From positions 1 to 33,350 of the forward strand of contig PHEU01000022.1 in NCBI GenBank assembly GCA_002841295.1: a stretch of 33,350 bases of DNA. The letters are read 5' to 3'. Below are positions 12,809 to 22,517 of the stretch, in pieces. Source of the DNA: Actinobacteria bacterium HGW-Actinobacteria-6 (lineage in GTDB: Bacteria > Actinomycetota > Coriobacteriia > Anaerosomatales > Anaerosomataceae). Below the pieces are notes generated by a model. That model was not told where the DNA came from. It did no database searches and saw only the letters and a list, made by a program, of their open reading frames with translations. Positions within the stretch are counted from its first letter, which is position 1, and every line of letters begins with the position of its first letter. Position numbers and translations under genes: made by a program.

Positions 12809-14176
12809 ATGCTCAGGGATTACATCTTCCACGACGCTACCAGGAGCTTCTGCAGTAAGTGCCAGCACCTGTGCGACGCGAAGATCATCATCAAGAACGG
12901 CAGCGCTTACCTTCTCAAGAACTGCCTGACCCATGGCGAAGAGCTGGAGCTCTTTGAAGAGGACGCAAGTTACCTCTTCGAGAAGCACCGCTACGACAAG
13001 CCCGGCAACAAGATCAAGACCGAGACCGCCATCAAGGACGGCTGCCCGCAGGACTGCGGCCTGTGCCCGGACCACGAGCAGCACACCTGTATCGGCCTGA
13101 TCGAAGTCACCCGGCGCTGCGATCTTGCCTGCCCGGTCTGCTACGCCAGCTCCGGCGACGGCGAGCACCTGCCGCTCGACCAGATCGAGCGCATGATGGA
13201 CTTCTATAAGGCACGCGAAGGCGGCAAGGCCGAAATCCTCCAGATCAGCGGTGGCGAGCCCACCACGCATCCTGAGATCGAAGCGATCCTCAAGCTGGCC
13301 AAGCGCAAGCGCTTCAAGTACGTGATGCTCAACACGAACGGCCTCCGGCTTGCCGAGGACACGCAGTTCGCGGCGTTCCTCAAGTCGCTCACACCTGGCT
13401 TTGAGGTCTACCTGCAGTTCGACGGTCTGAGCGACAAGGTCTATCAGAAGCTACGGGGCCGCAAGCTCCTCGACATCAAACGCGCCGCAATCGGCAATCT
13501 CCAGGCTGCCGAGGTGCCCATCACGCTCGTGGCGACGATCACCCGGGGCGTCAACGACGGCCAGGTTGGCGAGATCACCGAGTTCGGCATGCAGAGCGAC
13601 TACATCCGAGGCGTGAACTTTCAGCCCGTCGCCTTCTTTGGCCGAGGCACGCAGGAAAGCCTGAAGAACCGCGTGACCCTCTCGGGAATACGGCGCGATA
13701 TCGAACTTCAGACAGGCGGCGTCTTCAAGCGGGAGGACATCGTTCCGCTGCCGTGCAATGTGGACCGGGTCGCCGTCACCTACGCGATCAAGAACGGCGA
13801 CGGTTACGTGCCCATCACGAGCAAGATCAAGGTCGGCAACTACGTCGAGCTCATCGACAACACCATGGATTTCCGTGCCGAGGATGTCGTCAAGAACGCC
13901 ATCACGAAGTCGATCACCAAAGGTGCCGTCTGCGACTGTCTCAAGCTGAAGAACGACATCACGTCGCTGCTTCCCACCGACTACCTGAAGTGGACCCCTC
14001 GTCAGCGGGCGGACTTCATCGACAAGAACACATTCCGGATTACCATCTCGTCGTTCATCGACATGTACAACTACGACGCGAAGTCCATCAAGAAGGAGTG
14101 CGTGCACGTCATCACGCCCGACCTGAAGCGGATTCCCTTCTCGGCGTACAACATGCTGCACCGGAGCCAGACGTGA
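12809..14176 (+). CDS. Tes-like radical SAM protein (MJ0619 family)
   Basis: This 455-residue radical SAM enzyme resembles the archaeal tetraether lipid synthase and its bacterial relatives, which join lipid tails by C-C coupling. An N-terminal rubredoxin-like site is seen as FCSKCQHLC (Cys15, 18, 22) with Cys39 in NCLTHG. A second group is Cys79, 83, 86 and 94 (GCPQDCGLCPDHE). The SAM cluster is CDLACPVC (Cys104, 108, 111), followed by SGGEPT (148-152). A C-terminal group is Cys316, 375, 377 and 431, near IDMYNYDAKSIKKECVH and IPFSAYNM. In archaeal Tes the latter segment has PFC where this has PFS. It heads an operon whose next gene overlaps it as GTGA. The start ATG 12809 has only weak GAGAG upstream; GTG 12800 is possible. 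Whether it couples tails or makes another lipid change is inference. Confidence 0.82.
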   Translation: MLRDYIFHDATRSFCSKCQHLCDAKIIIKNGSAYLLKNCLTHGEELELFEEDASYLFEKHRYDKPGNKIKTETAIKDGCPQDCGLCPDHEQHTCIGLIEVTRRCDLACPVCYASSGDGEHLPLDQIERMMDFYKAREGGKAEILQISGGEPTTHPEIEAILKLAKRKRFKYVMLNTNGLRLAEDTQFAAFLKSLTPGFEVYLQFDGLSDKVYQKLRGRKLLDIKRAAIGNLQAAEVPITLVATITRGVNDGQVGEITEFGMQSDYIRGVNFQPVAFFGRGTQESLKNRVTLSGIRRDIELQTGGVFKREDIVPLPCNVDRVAVTYAIKNGDGYVPITSKIKVGNYVELIDNTMDFRAEDVVKNAITKSITKGAVCDCLKLKNDITSLLPTDYLKWTPRQRADFIDKNTFRITISSFIDMYNYDAKSIKKECVHVITPDLKRIPFSAYNMLHRSQT

Positions 14177-14805
14177 ACCTGCTCGACACGCTCAAGAACT
14201 CGCCGCTCCTGTCACAACCGCCGCTGGCGATTGTGGCCAACGTTGTGATGTTTCTCGCCTTCGTGCTGGTAGCTGCTGCGGTCATAGCCGACTTCAAGGC
14301 GTACCACCACCAGGACAAAGAGGTCGCGAAGAGCGACCGTAGCTTCGTGGAGACCGGCAGCATGACGGCGTTCTTCGTCGCCTACTACGTTGTGCTCAAG
14401 CTGCAGCTGGGCGTGTTCGTTGCGTCCGATGCGCTGCGGCAAGTGATGATCATCGCGGGCCTCATCGTGGTTGTGGTCGGCGCCGTGTTCAACGTCTGGG
14501 GCCGAGCAGTGCTCAAGTCGCGATGGGCCAACCAGATCAAGATCTACGAGGATCACACGCTCGCGACGACCGGTCCGTACGCCATCGTGCGTCATCCGCT
14601 GTATGCTTCGCTCATCTGGATGTGCGTGGGTGGCTCGATGGTCTACTCGAATGTGCTGTCGCTCGTGCTCACGTTCAGCGTGTTCGTCCCGATGATGTAC
14701 GTCCGGGGCAAGAAGGAAGATGCGCTTTTGCTCGAGGTGTTCGGCGAGCAGTTCGTGCAGTACCGGGCCAAGACCGGGATGTTCTTCCCGAGAGTATGGG
14801 GGTAG
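14173..14805 (+). CDS. Isoprenylcysteine methyltransferase-like membrane protein
   Basis: This 210-residue integral membrane protein starts at GTG 14173, overlapping the radical SAM stop by 4 bases (GTGA). It has about five hydrophobic segments. The C-terminal half carries the methyltransferase signature TTGPYAIVRHPLYAS (about 132-146, with Arg140-His141-Pro142) and the EDALLLEVFGEQFVQY segment (about 182-197) typical of the Icmt/PEMT fold, in which the methyl donor SAM binds near the inner membrane face. Bacterial members of this fold methylate lipids or small hydrophobic molecules, or carry out unknown steps. Its overlap with a Tes-like enzyme and an Lgt-like enzyme suggests a lipid substrate. 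The N-terminal 60 residues with a HHQDKE loop are unlike standard Icmt. Confidence 0.83.
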   Translation: MNLLDTLKNSPLLSQPPLAIVANVVMFLAFVLVAAAVIADFKAYHHQDKEVAKSDRSFVETGSMTAFFVAYYVVLKLQLGVFVASDALRQVMIIAGLIVVVVGAVFNVWGRAVLKSRWANQIKIYEDHTLATTGPYAIVRHPLYASLIWMCVGGSMVYSNVLSLVLTFSVFVPMMYVRGKKEDALLLEVFGEQFVQYRAKTGMFFPRVWG

Positions 14806-14807
14806 TC

Positions 14808-15248
14808 GTGGCGAACGTGACCATCCAACGCAACGCGTTTCTGTTCTGCCGGTATTCGGTGGCGCTCATGGTATGGGGTGCGCTCTTCTTCGAGGGTCCG
14901 CGCGCGTATCTGCTCGGCGCGGTGTTCGTCATCATGGCGCTCTCGGCGATCCTGACTGTCCAGTGGGCGCCGATGGTTTGGATCTACACGAAGACCGCGG
15001 GCCGCTTCATCGCATCGAAAGACGTGGTCCTCGACATCAAGGCGATGCGCGTGGCACATGGCCTCGGCGCTGTGCTGGCGCTTGTGTGCCTGTCGCTCGT
15101 GCTACACGACAAGCCGTATGCCGTCTACGTCGTCGCCGCGTTCGCGGCCCTCAAGACCGCAAGCGCGCTTGGTGCATGTCCGGCCTACAAGATCTACGGA
15201 TGCCTCACCAAGGGTGGCGGCTGCTGCGCGATAACGGGCAAGCGGTGA
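14808..15248 (+). CDS. Small membrane protein, DUF4395-like
   Basis: This protein of about 146 residues has four hydrophobic segments (about 12-28, 35-52, 82-99 and 105-122) and a Cys-bearing tail: GACPAYKIYGC (Cys124, Cys132) and GGGCC (Cys139, Cys140). The pattern of four helices with a C-terminal C...Y..GC resembles DUF4395, a family of unknown function; I am moderately sure of the assignment. I take GTG 14808 as the start because GGGGGT precedes it, but ATG 14796, which overlaps the previous gene, is in frame and possible. The stop overlaps the next gene as GTGA. Its tail could pass electrons or bind a metal for the radical SAM enzyme, or form disulfides, but this is speculative. Confidence 0.68.
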   Translation: MANVTIQRNAFLFCRYSVALMVWGALFFEGPRAYLLGAVFVIMALSAILTVQWAPMVWIYTKTAGRFIASKDVVLDIKAMRVAHGLGAVLALVCLSLVLHDKPYAVYVVAAFAALKTASALGACPAYKIYGCLTKGGGCCAITGKR

Positions 15249-16018
15249 TCCCGGACCTCCACGCGCACCCCGCAGTGTGGGGCGTTCGACCTGTGCTGTT
15301 CACCATCGACGGACAGCCTGTGGCCACGTACTCGTTCTTCGTGACGCTCGGGCTGGTGGTGGCGGTGCTGCTCTACCGCTACAACACCAAAGACCGCGCG
15401 GTCGGCAACAACGGGCTCTATATCGCACTCGCTGCGGTGGTCGGCGGAATCGTCGGCGCCAAACTGCCTATGTGGATCGTGAACCTACCGCAGATCATCG
15501 CAACCCCGCTGGATCCCGCGGTCTGGCTCTCGGGTCGCACGATCGTGGGCGGCATCATCGGCGGAGTGCTGGCGGTCTGGCTCGTGAAGCGGAAACTCGG
15601 AATCAAACAACGACTGGGGAACTATCTGGTGCCCTCGCTGACCGCAGGCATCTTCTTCGGGCGCATCGGCTGCTTCTTAGCCGGATGCTGCTACGGCACC
15701 GCGACGGCACTTCCCTGGGGCGTGAACTTCGGCGACGGCGTGCTCCGCAACCCGACGCAGCTTTACGAAGCGCTGTTCGTGCTCGGATTGTTCGTCTATT
15801 CGCAGCTCATGAAGGACCGCTTCGCGCCCGGCGAGCTCTTCCGCTTCTTCATGATCACGTACTTCAGCTGGCGGTTCCTCATCGAGTTCATCCGAGTCAA
15901 TCCTGTATGGATGCTGGGACTGACGTATTATCAGGTTGTAGCGTTGGGGGTCGTGGTCGCGTACGTCATCAAGGGCATGTACAGGAAGGCATCTGGTTCT
16001 GCTATAGGGGGTTCCTAA
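15245..16018 (+). CDS. Lgt-family protein (divergent prolipoprotein transferase)
   Basis: This 257-residue membrane protein belongs to the prolipoprotein diacylglyceryl transferase family. Seven or so helices are seen. Family signatures are GRTIVGGIIGG (97-107), GRIGCFLAGCCYG (139-151), NPTQLYEA (169-176) and WRFLIEFIR (209-217). Classical Lgt enzymes have HGG with an essential His where this has VGG, and Asn where this has Ala145. It is therefore a family branch that may transfer diacylglycerol, or another lipid group, to something other than a lipoprotein Cys. It starts at GTG 15245, overlapping the preceding stop as GTGA. A canonical Lgt should be elsewhere in the genome if this is not it. 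The operon context with a Tes-like enzyme suggests lipid processing. Confidence 0.85.
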   Translation: MIPDLHAHPAVWGVRPVLFTIDGQPVATYSFFVTLGLVVAVLLYRYNTKDRAVGNNGLYIALAAVVGGIVGAKLPMWIVNLPQIIATPLDPAVWLSGRTIVGGIIGGVLAVWLVKRKLGIKQRLGNYLVPSLTAGIFFGRIGCFLAGCCYGTATALPWGVNFGDGVLRNPTQLYEALFVLGLFVYSQLMKDRFAPGELFRFFMITYFSWRFLIEFIRVNPVWMLGLTYYQVVALGVVVAYVIKGMYRKASGSAIGGS

Positions 16019-16459
16019 ATGGACGAGACGAATCTTCCCGAGAACGGAAGCACACCCGAGACGCCGCCTGTACAGGTGTCTGAGAAGCGATACTTCACGC
16101 CAGAGCCACCGGTGAAACCGAAGGCAAAGACTGACGCCGGCTTTCTCATTCTGGGCTTCTTCGCCCCAATCGTGCTCAATGTCCTGACGGGCATGATCGG
16201 AGGGTTGATCAGCGGGGTCTTCTCAGGCATAAACGGCGACGCGAGCGTTGTCTTCTACTGGCTGGCGGCAGTCCCTGCTCCTGTGCTGTTCGTTGCGGTG
16301 CTTGTGTCGTTCATCGTTGGGAAACAGAAGGACAACGTTCGCCTCAAGAGCTTCGGGCAAGGCGGGCTGATCTTCTACGCAGTCAGCCTGCTACTCGCAC
16401 TACTAATCTTCGGAACCTGCGTTGTCGTGGGAGCTGGCGGCGGGCTGTTCGGCATCTAA
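16019..16459 (+). CDS. Small membrane protein ending the lipid operon
   Basis: I do not recognise this 146-residue protein. Its first 40 residues are polar and rich in Pro, Glu and Lys, so probably disordered and cytoplasmic. Three hydrophobic segments follow, at about 42-66, 80-101 and 117-142, separated by a Lys-containing loop. The ATG directly follows the stop of the Lgt-like gene (TAA-ATG) with AGGGGG 9 bases upstream, which places it in the same operon. It converges on the DUF3465 gene. It could be an accessory of the upstream lipid enzymes or a passenger. The weak inverted repeat 16432-16467 at its end has no T-run. Confidence 0.75.
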   Translation: MDETNLPENGSTPETPPVQVSEKRYFTPEPPVKPKAKTDAGFLILGFFAPIVLNVLTGMIGGLISGVFSGINGDASVVFYWLAAVPAPVLFVAVLVSFIVGKQKDNVRLKSFGQGGLIFYAVSLLLALLIFGTCVVVGAGGGLFGI

Positions 16460-16951: not shown

Positions 16952-18148
16952 CTAGATGATGCTCTTCAGCGCCTCAAGCACGCGGTCGACATCCTCGGCA
17001 CAACTGTACGGGGCTAGGCCGAGGCGAACTCCGCCGGCATCGCCCAGCCCAAGCGCGCGCGATGCTTCAAGCGCGTAGAACGAGCTCGCGGGTGCGTTGA
17101 TGTTGTACTCGGCAAGACGCGCCGTCAGCTCGATCGGCTCCATGCCGTCCACTGTGAAGAGCAGCGTTGGCGTGCGCACCTGCGCGCGCGAGTAGACGGT
17201 GACGCGCGGGTGCTCGGCCAGGCCGACTTCAAGCTTCCGGCGCAGGGCATCCTCGTGTGCCTCAAGCACGGTCATCGCACTCTGCAGCTGTTCGCGCCGG
17301 GTAGGTGCTGCCTCGCCGAAGCTCGCCAGGAAGTCGACGGCTGCGGTCGTGCCGGCCAGGAGCTCCCACGACGGAGTACCGAGCTCGAACCGCTCGGGCA
17401 CGGTGTTCGCCGAAGGAAGCAGCTTCTCAGGCGCGAGCGTCTCGAGAAGCGCAGGGGATGCGACCAGCACGCCGATGTGCGGACCGCAGAACTTGTACGG
17501 CGAGCATACATAGAAGTCGGCGCCCATCTCGGACACATCTACAAACGTGTGCGGCGTGTTGTGCACTCCGTCCACGTACAGGAGCGCGCCGCGTGCGTGA
17601 ACGCGCTCGGCGATCTCGCGGATTGAGGGACGCGTGCCGATGAGGTTCGACGCCGCAGTGATGGCGACCAAACGAGTACGGTCGCTCAACTGCTCCTCGA
17701 CGTCATCGGCAGTGATTTCGCCGGTCGCCGGGTCGAACTCGGCGTAGCGCAGCGTTGCGCCTGCACGCTTGGCCGCATACTCCCACGGGCGGATGTTCGC
17801 ATCGTGATCCAGCCGCGAAACAACAACCTCGTCGCCAGGTCCCCACGACTGCGCGATCGTCCGCGCGAAGTCGAAGGTGAGCTGCGTCATGCTGCGCCCG
17901 AAAACGACACCGCCAGCATCCACGCCGAGGAGATCCGCGATTGCCTGACGCGCGCCGAGAACGATAGCGTCGGTGCGCCTCTCGGTAGGCGTGATCGTCC
18001 CGCGCTGGCACGTCGCCGACACCATCGTGTCGCGAACAGCCTCGGCCACGACGGTCGGCATGAGCGTGCCGCCTGGCGCATCAAAGTGGGCGGCACCCTC
18101 ACGGAGTGCCGGGAATGCTGCTCGGACCGCGTCTACGTGAAACGTCAT
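16952..18148 (-). CDS. Cysteine desulfurase-like PLP enzyme (TIGR01976 type)
   Basis: This 398-residue fold-type I aminotransferase class V protein has the PLP Lys in CSPYKFCGPH and the Asp/His that contact the cofactor in LYVDGVHNTPH. It also carries the family features DAPGGT, RLDHDANIRPWEYAA, ASNLIGTRPSI and RFELGTPSWE. These match the cysteine desulfurase-like group TIGR01976, which differs from IscS/SufS and whose activity is not firmly known. The C-terminal Cys in APYSCAED does not by itself match the IscS/SufS catalytic Cys. The start ATG 18148 has AAAGGA upstream; a longer reading to 18277 has no support. It stands alone, 168 bases after the next surface-protein gene, so no Fe-S assembly partners are near. 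Confidence 0.9.
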   Translation of the reverse strand: MTFHVDAVRAAFPALREGAAHFDAPGGTLMPTVVAEAVRDTMVSATCQRGTITPTERRTDAIVLGARQAIADLLGVDAGGVVFGRSMTQLTFDFARTIAQSWGPGDEVVVSRLDHDANIRPWEYAAKRAGATLRYAEFDPATGEITADDVEEQLSDRTRLVAITAASNLIGTRPSIREIAERVHARGALLYVDGVHNTPHTFVDVSEMGADFYVCSPYKFCGPHIGVLVASPALLETLAPEKLLPSANTVPERFELGTPSWELLAGTTAAVDFLASFGEAAPTRREQLQSAMTVLEAHEDALRRKLEVGLAEHPRVTVYSRAQVRTPTLLFTVDGMEPIELTARLAEYNINAPASSFYALEASRALGLGDAGGVRLGLAPYSCAEDVDRVLEALKSII

Positions 18149-18316
18149 GGGTGCGTCCTTTGCTTGGGAATGGAGCTGGAGCAAGTGTAGCCTGTGGACG
18201 CCGCCATGCAACGCACAGATTCCACACGTTGGACGGGCAGCGTGATCAACATGACGCGCGCTTACAACCCGCACCATGTCGACAAGCGCCTATGTGAAAC
18301 TGCGTGCGCGCGCTAG

Positions 18317-21300
18317 CTAGCGGGCGAGCGCAGCCTCCACCGCATCCCGCACCACCTGACTCACCGCAGCGGTGCTGCCAAGATAGCGGACCTCGTTGAT
18401 GGCAGCTTTGTTGGCCACAAGGGTGGATCGGACCGTGCTGTCCAGTGCCGTGCCCGGCGTTAGCAGCATGACGCTGCTGTCGCGCCCCTGCAGAACACCG
18501 CCGGCCAGTGCATCCGGGAAGTTGGTGCCAGTCGCAAACGCCACCTTGTCCCAGCCGAGTTCGGCGTGATCGACACCGTAGACTGCCACCGCAACCGCAG
18601 TCGAGTAGCGGTTCGCGCCATAAAGACGATCGACGCTCAACGAGCCGTAGATGCCGTTGAGGGCAGTCTCCACACCTGCCGGAATCGCCGCCGTGCTCCC
18701 GAGGACAATGGGGTGATCTACCCCACCCGAGGCCATCGCGTTGCGTGTCGCCGCATCAAGGCCGGCGGTGGGGTTCACCAGGTAGATCGGCCAACCGTTG
18801 GCAGCAGCAAGCGGAGACGCGCCGAGCGCGTCCGGGAATTTCACGCCGGTGGCAATGAAGCACGTCCCGTCGTAGGAACCATCGAGGACGTCGATAGTCT
18901 TCGCCGCGATGGCCCGCGCAGTCTCGTAGCGGTTGGCACCCCAGATGCGGGTCACATTTCCGGCGCCCAAGGCTCCCTTGAGCGCGTTCTCCACAGCGGT
19001 GGAAACCGAAGGCGTCCAACCCAGGATGTAGGCCTTTGTCGCACCGAGATGCTCGATCTCGCGAAGCACTTCTGCCGGTAGGGCGGCCGTTGGCGTGAGC
19101 AGGATTGGAGCATTCAGGGCTCCTGCAAGCGCTGCGCCCCCAAGTGCGTCAGGCCAGTTGTACGCGGTCGCGATCACTACCGCCCCGGCACCCGTGGGGA
19201 ACGACTCTTCCGCTGCTGCGATGGCCGTTCCAATACGGTTTGCCCCCTGGATTGGGGTGACAACAAGCGGTGGCGGAACCTCACTGATCGTGAAAACGAC
19301 CGTCTTCGTCGCCGGGTTGCCGGCCGTATCCTCGGCAGTCACAACGAGCGTATGAACACCCAGCGCCGAGACTGACGAGCCGCTCGTGAACGCCACGCTG
19401 TCGAGGGTCGCTTCTGCCAGCACCGGTCCATCCACAGCATCAAGTGCCGAGAAGGTGATGGTGACGGGCGACGTGTACGTACCCCCGTTCGTCACGCCGG
19501 ATACCGTGATGACTGGCGCAACGACATCTGGGGGCGCGAGGGTGGTCGCCGGTGCGTTCGCACTCGCGCCAGAGGTGTTGGCAGCAGGAGCGTTGTCCAC
19601 CGCCTTCACGTAGTAGGAGTAGCTCGTGGAGGGGGTGAGGCCGCTGATGGTTGCCGTAGTCCCCGTGACCGTCGCCTTCAGAAGGTTGGTTGCAGCATCG
19701 TAGACGAGGTAGTGCTTGATGCCGGAAGCATCGATCGAGGCTGACCAGGACACCTGGATTGCGGTCGAGGAGACGGCATGCGCGGACACTCCCTGCGGCA
19801 CGGTGGGAGGGGTGACGTCCACGGCCGCCTCACCGGCGGTGCCGAAGAGTCCGACTGACACGGTGGTCTCTTCAGAGTCATTGCTCCCGATCTGCAAGGC
19901 GGCGTCTGCCACCCTGATGTATGCAACACTCCGAAACTCGCCGAGCAGATCCTCAAGCTCGAAGCCTTGTGTGACGGGCTCGAGCACCTCGACCAAACCC
20001 GACCCCATCGAGTAGCTTTCGACAACCTCCATTACGTACTTTCCGCCCGAAACCACGGCACCGCTGCCGGTGTAATCGACCCCGTCGATCCGCACATGCC
20101 ATGCGAGATCACCGCCACCTCCGCGGTTCTCGAAGCCCGTGAACAGCGAAATACTATCGAGGTGCCCCTCAACGTAGTTATACCGGGCGATGGTACTCGT
20201 GTAGCTCGTCTTCACCGGGACGGGTTCGCCTGAGTAGGCGATAGTGGGCGAGTACCTCACCACGACGTCGTGGGATTCATCAGGAGCGATCGTTTCACCG
20301 CTCGGGTTCCCGCTCGCTATCGAGAAGTCGGCGCCCACAAGCCGCACTTCCCCGATATCGAGTGGCGCGGCGCCCACGTTGCTGACCGTGATCGTCCTCT
20401 GCGTACTGCTCCCCACCATGACGGTCCCGAAGTCCATGTTCTGCGTGACACTGATCATAGGAATCGGGATAGCGGTGGCCCAGAGAGTGTACGTGCTTCC
20501 GAGAAGCCATCCACCGGTCACTCTCGCGTACACGGTCTTGTCTGTCTTGGCGGTGTATTCGATGCGAGAATACTCGCCCTCGCCTCCGTGATCATAGGAG
20601 TCGATCAGTGTTGTTCCGTCCGAGTCGTAAAGGTCGAGTATGGTGTCGGTGTCCTCAAGCGGCGTACCGGGGCCCGTCTCGATCGTGTATCTCCACCCTC
20701 GGATGACCGGAATCGAGACCCAGTCCTCATCATCACTCGGGAGCAGAGTGCGCTCCTGCACTGATCCGTTGACCGCTAGCGGCTTCGCTGCGCTGTGGGA
20801 ATCATCCGGCTCGTAGTCGTCCGAGATCACAACAGCGCTGACCTCGTACTCCTCCTCCTGGAAAGCGAGGTAGCCCGTGATCCTCGCGTAGACCGTCTTG
20901 TCCTCATCAGCCTTGTACTCGAGGAACGTGTCCGCGGCGACGAACTCGCCAGGAACCAGTTCTGTCACCCCGTCGGAGTCGAACAACGCCGTACGGGTGA
21001 ACTCAGCGGGCTGGGCATCAGCAGTGCACGCGACACGATAGGTCAGCCCCGCAGCGACCTCGAAGGATACCCAGTCCTGGTCGTCAGCCGGGGCGATGTT
21101 GTGCTGCTGCGAAGCCCCACCAACCGCAATCGGATTCGCTGCGGTGTAGATGTCGTCCGGCTCGTAGTCGTCCGAGAGCTCAACGACGCTGACCTCGTAA
21201 GCAGCTCCCTCATCGGCCCAGTAGCCCGTGACCCGTGCGTAGACCGTCTTGTCCGCATCGGCCGTGTACTCGGCGATCGTGTCCGAGCCGGTCCACAGGC

Positions 21301-22375
21301 CGATTTCGGTCGACCCGTCGGAGTCGTACAGCGTCGTCCGAGTGAAATCATCCGGCCATTCCACCCCGGATGAGACGCGGTATGTCCGCCCCTCGGCGAC
21401 ATCGAATGAGACCCAGTCCTGGTCGTCCTGAGGATCCAGTGTGTGCTGCTGAGGAGCAGCGTCTACCGTAATCGGGCTGGCCGTGTCGTAGGAGTCGTCG
21501 GGCTCGTAGGAGTCGCCCACCCGTTCGACGCTGATGGAATAGGCGCCCGTCTCGCCACTGTAGTAGGCCGCCACCTGCGCGTATAGCGTCGTATCCGCAG
21601 TCGCCGTGTACACAACTTGCTCGTCAGGGTCGATGCCGTTGCCGCTCCCCGTGAGCGGAGTCGTACCGTCCGAGTCATAGAGCCCGAGAGACACGCCGAT
21701 GTCCTCGGCGGGTATGCCGGAAGCTGTCTTGATTCTGTAGGCTACGCCTGCACTGACCGAGAACGAGATCCAGTCCTCATCACCCTCGGGGGCCAGCGTG
21801 TGTTGCTGGGAGACGGCTCCTACCGTGATCGGAGTCGCAGTGGTGTAAGAGTCGTCCGGCTCATATCCGTCCACGCTCGTTGGCACTCTCACCGCAACGC
21901 TGATGGAGTAGGTACCCGTGGCACTGCTAAAGCCAATCACCTTCGCGTACAAGGTCTCGTTCGTGTCCGATGTGTACTCAATGCGAGAATACAGGTCCGC
22001 ACCGCCATCATCGTCAGAGTCGATAAGCGTGATCCCGTCTGAGTCGTACAGCTCGAGTATGGTGTCAGCGTGCTCGACCGGCGTGCCGGGCGCCGTCTCG
22101 ATCCAGTAGATCTCGCCTGCACTGACCGAGAACGAGACCCAGTCCTCATCACCCTCGGGGGCCAGCGTGTGCTGCTGCGCGACGGCTCCTACCGTGATCG
22201 GAGTCGCCGTAGTGTAAGAGTCGTCCGGCTCATACGCATCCGCAACAGTAGCCATCGCGGGTAGCGGCATCAACAACATCGCCGGCATGATCGTGATGAC
22301 AAGTAGAACGGCGATTGCCTGTTGGAGTCCCCCGCCAGCTACGAAACGTGCGGGACTTCTCGGCGGTGCGTGCAT
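18317..22375 (-). CDS. Large cell wall-binding surface protein with PPC-type repeats
   Basis: This 1352-residue exported protein starts at ATG 22375 with GGGGGAAG upstream. A signal peptide (about 1-44) ends at AMA. Five pre-peptidase C-like beta repeats follow (about 48-625), each starting YEPDD and containing DEDW/DQDWVSF. Then come a choice-of-anchor-D-like domain (about 635-705), an unassigned region, an FN3 domain (about 835-925) and an Ig-like domain (VITVSGVTNGGTY, about 930-1015). Three cell wall-binding type 2 repeats (PF04122) occupy the C-terminus, with the NWPDAL, KFPDAL and NFPDAL marks and AxRIGTA/NRYETA/NRYSTA segments. PF04122 repeats anchor proteins to cell-wall polymers in Clostridioides. 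It probably acts as a cell-surface adhesin or scaffold; no enzyme domain is seen. The repeats are DNA-level duplicates in part. Confidence 0.92.
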   Translation of the reverse strand: MHAPPRSPARFVAGGGLQQAIAVLLVITIMPAMLLMPLPAMATVADAYEPDDSYTTATPITVGAVAQQHTLAPEGDEDWVSFSVSAGEIYWIETAPGTPVEHADTILELYDSDGITLIDSDDDGGADLYSRIEYTSDTNETLYAKVIGFSSATGTYSISVAVRVPTSVDGYEPDDSYTTATPITVGAVSQQHTLAPEGDEDWISFSVSAGVAYRIKTASGIPAEDIGVSLGLYDSDGTTPLTGSGNGIDPDEQVVYTATADTTLYAQVAAYYSGETGAYSISVERVGDSYEPDDSYDTASPITVDAAPQQHTLDPQDDQDWVSFDVAEGRTYRVSSGVEWPDDFTRTTLYDSDGSTEIGLWTGSDTIAEYTADADKTVYARVTGYWADEGAAYEVSVVELSDDYEPDDIYTAANPIAVGGASQQHNIAPADDQDWVSFEVAAGLTYRVACTADAQPAEFTRTALFDSDGVTELVPGEFVAADTFLEYKADEDKTVYARITGYLAFQEEEYEVSAVVISDDYEPDDSHSAAKPLAVNGSVQERTLLPSDDEDWVSIPVIRGWRYTIETGPGTPLEDTDTILDLYDSDGTTLIDSYDHGGEGEYSRIEYTAKTDKTVYARVTGGWLLGSTYTLWATAIPIPMISVTQNMDFGTVMVGSSTQRTITVSNVGAAPLDIGEVRLVGADFSIASGNPSGETIAPDESHDVVVRYSPTIAYSGEPVPVKTSYTSTIARYNYVEGHLDSISLFTGFENRGGGGDLAWHVRIDGVDYTGSGAVVSGGKYVMEVVESYSMGSGLVEVLEPVTQGFELEDLLGEFRSVAYIRVADAALQIGSNDSEETTVSVGLFGTAGEAAVDVTPPTVPQGVSAHAVSSTAIQVSWSASIDASGIKHYLVYDAATNLLKATVTGTTATISGLTPSTSYSYYVKAVDNAPAANTSGASANAPATTLAPPDVVAPVITVSGVTNGGTYTSPVTITFSALDAVDGPVLAEATLDSVAFTSGSSVSALGVHTLVVTAEDTAGNPATKTVVFTISEVPPPLVVTPIQGANRIGTAIAAAEESFPTGAGAVVIATAYNWPDALGGAALAGALNAPILLTPTAALPAEVLREIEHLGATKAYILGWTPSVSTAVENALKGALGAGNVTRIWGANRYETARAIAAKTIDVLDGSYDGTCFIATGVKFPDALGASPLAAANGWPIYLVNPTAGLDAATRNAMASGGVDHPIVLGSTAAIPAGVETALNGIYGSLSVDRLYGANRYSTAVAVAVYGVDHAELGWDKVAFATGTNFPDALAGGVLQGRDSSVMLLTPGTALDSTVRSTLVANKAAINEVRYLGSTAAVSQVVRDAVEAALAR
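21751..21865. repeat. Near-identical DNA repeat, copy B (PPC repeat 2)
   Basis: This 115-base segment differs at about six positions from 22120-22234, which lies 369 bases (123 codons) away. Both lie in phase inside the large surface-protein gene and encode the start of pre-peptidase-like repeats. The other three repeats are less similar, suggesting a recent duplication or gene conversion. Confidence 0.8.
22120..22234. repeat. Near-identical DNA repeat, copy A (PPC repeat 1)
   Basis: Partner of 21751-21865, at about 95% identity by eye. Because the period is a multiple of three, recombination between the copies would change the number of repeats without breaking the frame. Confidence 0.8.
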
Positions 22376-22517
22376 GTCTTCCCCCTGCCCGCCCAGAACC
22401 AAGAGGTCTCACACCTCACGAACGAGCCGACACCGGATGAAGCTCAAGGCCCGCCGCTCTGAGCTGTCCACACCGTCTCTATACCCGGTTTGCGAAATCG
22501 GTCGGCCGAGATGGAAC

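Follow-up and report, generated by a model that had tools for sequence, protein, structure and literature searches.

The window analysed here, a stretch of 33,350 nucleotides from Actinobacteria bacterium HGW-Actinobacteria-6 (contig PHEU01000022.1), holds at positions 12809-16459 a compact plus-strand operon of five genes, which encode a radical S-adenosylmethionine (SAM) enzyme resembling tetraether synthase (Tes), an ICMT-family membrane methyltransferase, a DUF4395 membrane protein, a paralogue of Lgt and a small membrane protein with a cysteine at the end of its C-terminal helix (Table 1). The source genome is a 2.35 Mb bin of 69 contigs with 95% completeness, and its closest named relative is HGW-Actinobacteria-1.

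Table 1. Genes and one codon of the five-gene operon, in coordinates of the window (HMM, hidden Markov model; TM, transmembrane helix)
Feature	Position	Strand	Remarks
Tes-like radical SAM enzyme, 455 aa	12809..14176	+	Radical_SAM HMM 3e-21
ICMT/PEMT-family integral membrane methyltransferase, RHPLY motif	14173..14805	+	GTG start, GTGA overlap with radical SAM stop
DUF4395 membrane protein	14808..15248	+	GTG start, 2-base gap after ICMT gene; HMM 6e-8
Lgt paralogue	15245..16018	+	GTG start, GTGA overlap with DUF4395 gene; LGT HMM 1e-37
Small 3-TM membrane protein, proposed acceptor	16019..16459	+	ATG straight after Lgt-gene TAA
Cys134 codon (G-x-C motif) of small membrane protein	16418..16420	+	

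All five genes are present in the order listed by the initial annotation, which had been made from the letters of the DNA, and its family names were borne out by the HMM scores; the close packing that it had described was also found, with the correction that the ICMT and DUF4395 genes do not overlap and are separated by 2 bases. In the HMM scans the first product additionally showed an HMPTM zinc ribbon beside the Radical_SAM domain, the second matched ICMT (4e-13) as well as PEMT, and the fifth matched no family in Pfam or NCBIfam. In each of three related genomes there is an orthologous operon of the same five genes, with 73-84% identity between the radical SAM proteins. Comparison with these genomes by the Nei-Gojobori method gave ratios of nonsynonymous to synonymous substitution (dN/dS) of 0.14-0.25 for the four enzyme-like genes, indicating strong purifying selection, and of 0.31-0.58 for the small membrane protein. 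The orthologous operons, the low dN/dS and the recurrence of the gene set across phyla place the operon beyond chance, and confirm that it is real and maintained.

Spread and constant parts of the cassette

In a scan of 84,980 genomes, for which an alignment of the close orthologues served as query, at least 517 relatives of the radical SAM protein were confirmed and 80 loci were kept; these loci are mutually related and were chosen as top hits, and all locus counts given below are to be read in that light. The gene order radical SAM-ICMT-DUF4395-Lgt, whose conservation in other genomes the initial annotation had left to be checked, does recur, being found in at least 7-8 kept loci at 48-53% identity from Armatimonadota, Patescibacteria including Moraniibacteriota, and one woesearchaeal bin (one of these loci lacking DUF4395), and again in Acidobacteriota. 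The other kept loci are about 40% identical over the full length and come from Bacillota, Cyanobacteriota, Bacteroidota, Pseudomonadota, Spirochaetota and an acidobacterium. In nearly all of them an Lgt homologue adjoins the radical SAM gene, mostly immediately upstream, and their smaller core consists of the Tes-like radical SAM enzyme, the Lgt paralogue and a small membrane protein. As several of the carriers are known from metagenome bins, individual lineage calls, the woesearchaeal one for instance, could result from misbinning; carriers that are isolates, and free of that doubt, include Paenibacillus, Flavobacterium, Aequorivita, Sphingomonas, Nostoc and others.

Exactly one such radical SAM gene was found in each of 22 carrier genomes tested. 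Family members were carried by about 13 of 199 sampled genomes of Acidobacteriota (full-length identity of at least 39%) and by 8 of 194 of Cyanobacteriota (E below 1e-60), and the 151 sampled genomes of Armatimonadota held 7 window-type genes plus a more distant set that is likewise linked to Lgt; the distribution of the cassette across phyla is sporadic. In 101 scored loci Lgt lies within about 4.5 kb of the radical SAM gene, and this linkage persists though gene order varies between lineages, the orders seen being Lgt-radical SAM-small, radical SAM-ICMT-DUF4395-Lgt-small, ICMT-DUF4395-radical SAM-Lgt, Lgt-small-radical SAM and small-Lgt-radical SAM. The constant parts of the cassette are the Tes-like radical SAM enzyme, the Lgt paralogue and the small membrane-cysteine protein.

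The ICMT and DUF4395 genes look like an optional finishing step. The two occur together in the window type and also in the distant Armatimonadota group, there upstream, and in one Patescibacteria bin (L073:7364-8383) they are fused into a single frame of 340 codons, which suggests joint action. The window methyltransferase scored 50 bits against PF04140, where the cut-off is 24, and stayed under the cut-off of the isoprenylcysteine methyltransferase equivalog (83 of 160 bits). The DUF4395 protein, with 33.5 bits against a PF14340 cut-off of 24.5, ends in a C-terminal CPAYKIYGCLTKGGGCC cysteine cluster.

The radical SAM enzyme and the Lgt paralogue

The metal-site residues of the window radical SAM protein are a CxxC...CxxH site (C15, C18, C39 and H42), an N-terminal auxiliary cluster site (C79, C83, C86 and H89) and the radical SAM motif CxxxCxxC (C104, C108 and C111). 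For Tes, the corresponding ligands of the N-terminal sites and of the radical SAM motif are known (PMC9433317), and the alignment showed the N-terminal and radical SAM ligands to be retained in 96 of 96 family members. The AlphaFold model had a mean predicted local distance difference test score (pLDDT) of 85.7, with weakness in loop 77-88, the region of the N-terminal cluster, which was modelled without metal. Its best structural match in Foldseek was the tetraether synthase of M. jannaschii (7tom), aligned over the full length with a TM-score of 0.84, and VIA-align to the same structure gave Z 41.1 over 433 residues with a root mean square deviation of 3.1 and 32% identity; further radical SAM structures aligned over the core alone, at Z of about 20 or below.

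The protein has the Tes fold and is not Tes. It scored 305 bits against a cut-off of 450 for Tes (NF045702) and 338 bits against 490 for TrsS (NF045646), for which its relatives scored 301-359 bits. The column of the IPFC motif holds a cysteine in 12 of 12 Tes and 29 of 29 TrsS-side sequences and in none of the 96 family members; the column of the [KR]C.IH motif is cysteine in every Tes and TrsS-side row, the family having its cysteine one column later; and a third C-terminal column, before TY, is more than 90% cysteine in Tes and TrsS only. From the alignment we infer that these three lost cysteines serve as cluster ligands in Tes and TrsS. The family has cysteines of its own, C94 and C431 being invariant, C316 present in 95 of 96 members and a CC pair in 83%. 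In a tree of 70 rows, built by a short IQ-TREE search with SH-aLRT support, without bootstrap and with no Mss reference sequence included, a 50-row Lgt-linked side was separated from a side holding MJ0619, DPANN and acidobacterial Tes and Coriobacteriia TrsS-like sequences by a branch of length 0.64 with SH-aLRT 100, and on this second side, which comprises 20 rows, no row has an Lgt neighbour. An assignment of the window protein to Tes or TrsS was rejected on the cut-offs, the tree and the cysteine columns, so that of the Tes-like assignment made initially the full fold stands, while a grouping with Tes or with lipid-coupling enzymes of bacteria is not supported. In three other loci (L181, L209 and L235) the reading frame of a Tes/TrsS-like radical SAM protein contains a TGA in frame, which may encode selenocysteine, as in TrsS, or reflect frame damage.

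The model of the Lgt paralogue (pLDDT 87) had a single confident match in the PDB, E. coli Lgt (5azb), with probability 1.00 and a TM-score of 0.66. The protein belongs to the family PF01790 (1.3e-37) and lies under the cut-offs of both Lgt equivalogs (NF000778, 125 of 334 bits; TIGR00544, 66 of 118.9 bits). With residues numbered via alignment to the canonical Lgt of the source genome, His103 is replaced by Val in the window paralogue, and Asn146 and Glu151 each by Cys; the equivalents of Arg143 and Arg239 are present. The same picture was found throughout the family: in 108 of 108 paralogues the position of the catalytic His103, part of the HGGL motif, holds V, L, M, I, A or F and never His, the Asn146 position is Cys in all aligned paralogues, the Glu151 position is never Glu, and Arg143 and Arg239 are kept in 105 of 105 and 100 of 100 aligned sequences. 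In E. coli Lgt, the substitutions H103A/N/Q/R/Y and E151A/Q were reported to be inactive, the lipid pocket was shown to be lined by the arginines, and a role in binding the lipobox peptide was proposed for the HGGL motif (PMC4728403). Since the arginines are retained while His103 and Glu151 are lost, lipid binding has probably been kept and the peptide side altered. An altered peptide side would suit a different acceptor, for example a cysteine in a C-terminal helix, and loss of transferase activity predicts the same residues equally well. The idea that the fourth gene is the housekeeping Lgt was rejected, as the canonical enzyme, with SFHGG and GRITNF, is encoded on another contig of the source genome and His103 is missing from the paralogue. 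A third Lgt-family protein of the same genome (contig C3:4256-4945, locus L154) also lacks His103 (GYSLYGG) and carries GCFLNGCCYG; its neighbours are a subtilisin-like protein and a RecQ-like helicase, with no radical SAM gene within the stretch read.

The small membrane-cysteine protein

The C-terminal membrane helix of the small window protein ends in IFGTC-VVVGAGGGLFGI, the cysteine being residue 134 of 146. Such a gene almost always comes directly after the cassette, behind Lgt in window-type loci and behind the radical SAM gene in those of the widespread type. The homologues diverge widely in sequence and share a pattern in which positive charge precedes a helix about 20 residues long and a cysteine comes next, after small residues, with helix ends such as LFGAC, AFGAC, FLLNAAC, LLNGGC, SLGIC, GFGSC and SGLC in other loci; no family was matched at cut-off in a Pfam scan of ten of them and an NCBIfam scan of three. 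When one scoring rule for a small cysteine open reading frame (ORF) was applied to 154 loci, such an ORF was found to follow the cassette in 76 of 101 Lgt-linked loci versus 2 of 52 loci without Lgt, a contrast whose Fisher value of 8e-19 is not a true probability, as the Lgt-linked loci are interrelated and were picked as best hits. One of the two positives without Lgt is a cyanobacterial member of the Lgt-linked clade, and among the 25 exceptions at least 10 have the small gene ahead of Lgt, sandwiched between it and the radical SAM gene, or slightly past the scoring limits.

Among 44 non-redundant small proteins, glycine stands at position -2 from the cysteine in 28 and glycine or alanine in 35, and the cysteine lies within 15 residues of the C-terminus in 32. 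Other small multi-TM ORFs in the same loci have a hydrophobic cysteine of any kind in 14 of 37 cases, and the combination of glycine or alanine with a short tail was found in 25 of the 44 small proteins versus 3 of these 37. The last lysine or arginine mostly precedes the cysteine by 16-24 residues (median about 20), and the mean net charge is +2.2 before the helix versus +0.1 after it. By the positive-inside rule, this charge pattern predicts that the conserved cysteine faces the outer side of the membrane, where Lgt works. A canonical lipoprotein was ruled out, given that the lipobox pattern is not enriched and the cysteine sits in the last helix.

The small protein evolves 2-3 times faster than the cassette enzymes, and it is sometimes duplicated: two nearly identical copies stand in tandem after Lgt in an armatimonadote genome (L251:7772-8452, genome G414), and four further loci (L131, L094, L091 and L114) likewise hold two copies. 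Fast evolution and duplication are common among substrates, and in both respects the small protein resembles one.

Readings of the cassette and known systems

We favour, at a probability of about 0.42, the reading in which the small protein accepts a lipid-derived group and the Lgt paralogue and the radical SAM enzyme act on the same lipid or cysteine. It builds on synteny, folds, kept and lost residues and the topology pattern from hydropathy, all directly observed; the substrate status, the lipid attachment, the order of steps, the product and the role of methylation would be as follows. The Lgt paralogue would hold a phospholipid, probably phosphatidylglycerol, by its retained arginines at the outer side of the inner membrane, and would pass a lipid group to the G-x-C cysteine of the small protein, which is placed like a lipoprotein cysteine, yet within a C-terminal helix. 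The radical SAM enzyme might act on the lipid tail or the cysteine, making a C-C or C-S bond there, and in the window type the ICMT enzyme may afterwards methylate the product. In Tes, a cluster sulfur bonds to a substrate carbon (PMC9433317). The fuller proposal, that a hitherto undescribed post-translational lipidation system found in many bacterial phyla uses a Tes-like enzyme and an Lgt paralogue without His103 to build a covalent lipid-cysteine in the C-terminal helix of a dedicated small protein, possibly with radical chemistry linking the cysteine sulfur to a lipid carbon, is tentative and more doubtful.

Several points weigh against the acceptor reading. The main difficulty is one of geometry, the radical SAM enzyme presumably working in the cytosol and the cysteine being predicted to face outward, so that the two would have to share a lipid or come into play at different times; the problem would be eased if the radical SAM enzyme modified the lipid before its transfer. 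The loss of His103 and Glu151 makes ordinary lipoprotein diacylglyceryl transfer unlikely. Under equal selection the glycine at -2 is only modestly enriched (28 of 44 versus 4 of 14, p = 0.03), for which reason weight is placed on the contrast between loci with and without Lgt, and a PROSITE-style lipobox was found in 12 of 44 small proteins versus 26 of 134 control cysteines. Furthermore, membrane cysteines may be conserved for other purposes, such as assembly or the presentation of lipids, and we infer the attachment chemistry itself from sequences and models.

The initial annotation had tied the operon to lipid chemistry, a link now strengthened by the near-constant partnership of the radical SAM gene with an Lgt paralogue, and had proposed as product a coupled, membrane-spanning or otherwise modified lipid. 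A free lipid of this kind, its tails joined by the Tes-like enzyme and its head or ends finished by the others, would be in keeping with a Tes fold in which all four metal-binding regions are recognisable, with the membership of the Lgt partner in a phospholipid-binding enzyme family, and with the finding that Tes binds and can process ester phospholipids (PMC9433317). The radical SAM proteins nevertheless form a clade separate from Tes and have lost the three C-terminal cysteines of Tes and TrsS, and among the carriers are many cyanobacteria as well as Paenibacillus and flavobacteria, which are not known to make membrane-spanning lipids. No match to the ether-lipid gene DUF2229 (PlsA/Ger-type) was found in the source genome, on which ground an ether-lipid operon was rejected, and its absence counts against the free lipid as well. 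A free lipid also leaves the small cysteine protein unexplained, and a protein as constant as the enzymes, a feature that the initial annotation had missed, shifts the likely product towards a modified membrane protein, so that a free lipid is now improbable.

It is also conceivable, if unlikely, that the small protein, instead of being a substrate, acts as a scaffold or as a partner presenting lipids, that the enzymes modify a phospholipid, for example by chain methylation, cyclisation or desaturation, and that the ICMT enzyme methylates the head or a chain end. The methyltransferase family does include lipid methyltransferases, as the PEMT match recalls, and the small proteins are alike in helices and charge pattern and little in sequence; a scaffold, though, should retain more than one residue and its local context, and tandem duplicates and fast evolution suit a substrate better. 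Poorer chances are given to a pathway like that of ribosomally synthesized and post-translationally modified peptides (RiPPs), in which the radical SAM enzyme would crosslink the small protein by a thioether or other bond and the Lgt-like protein would act as a docking or insertion factor without lipid transfer. The next-best fold matches are indeed RiPP maturases such as SuiB and SkfB, the small protein is fast-evolving with an invariant-type cysteine, and the catalytic histidine of Lgt is lost. The maturases, however, match the radical SAM core only (Z of about 20 versus 41 for Tes), and the lipid-binding Arg143 and Arg239 are kept in every aligned Lgt paralogue. An anti-phage defence system was discarded, as PADLOC gave only weak partial matches of viperin models to radical SAM residues 100-215 and no match for the other four operon proteins.

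Beyond the operon, two minus-strand genes were noted by eye: a cysteine desulfurase-like (class V aminotransferase) protein at 16952-18277, convergent with the operon, and at 18317-22402 a large secreted protein that has repeated PPC-like segments and, towards its C-terminal end, repeats of cell-wall-binding type.

That no system with this gene set had been described was the impression given initially, and our search of the open-licence literature in PubMed Central (PMC), outside of which lie subscription papers and preprints, likewise found no description of it; nor did any Pfam or NCBIfam model name the cassette in scans of the operon proteins and small homologues. Within that literature the gene system is new, and as each enzyme belongs to a known superfamily the novelty lies in the system and not in the folds. 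If the acceptor reading is true, bacteria would have a second route for modifying the cysteines of membrane proteins, by radical chemistry, beside the lipoprotein pathway, and the cassette occurs in culturable organisms (Paenibacillus, Flavobacterium, Sphingomonas and cyanobacteria). Its relevance to lipid biomarkers holds even without the mechanism, for surveys treat Tes homologues as possible makers of membrane-spanning lipids, and those of bacterial Tes homologues based on BLAST thresholds (PMC8941075, PMC11868695) likely sweep in the Lgt-linked clade without the three Tes cysteines. The cysteine columns together with the Lgt neighbour offer a simple means of telling this clade from Tes.

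Compared with known systems, the radical SAM enzyme shares with Tes/GDGT-MAS (MJ0619, NF045702, 7tol, 7tom) the full-length fold, the CxxC/CxxH site, the N-terminal cluster and the radical SAM ligands, but it has C94, C316, the CC pair and C431 instead of the three C-terminal cysteines of Tes, falls below the Tes cut-off in a separate clade, and has an Lgt neighbour of a kind not seen at Tes loci. TrsS (NF045646) gave the best NCBIfam score of the window protein and has the same domain layout, whereas its clade and cysteine set differ and the Coriobacteriia loci on the TrsS side are without an Lgt neighbour. With Lgt (PF01790, 5azb) the window paralogue shares the fold, Arg143 and Arg239, and unlike Lgt the paralogues lack His103, Asn146 and Glu151 throughout. 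The match of the methyltransferase to the ICMT family (PF04140, 4a2n) spans the whole catalytic half including the RHPLY segment, although no prenylated protein substrate is apparent for it. Finally, the small protein resembles bacterial lipoproteins in its positive charge, hydrophobic helix and predicted outer-face cysteine after small residues, and differs from them in that the helix in question is mostly the final one, with its cysteine close to the C-terminus, and the motif is G-x-C and not a PROSITE lipobox.

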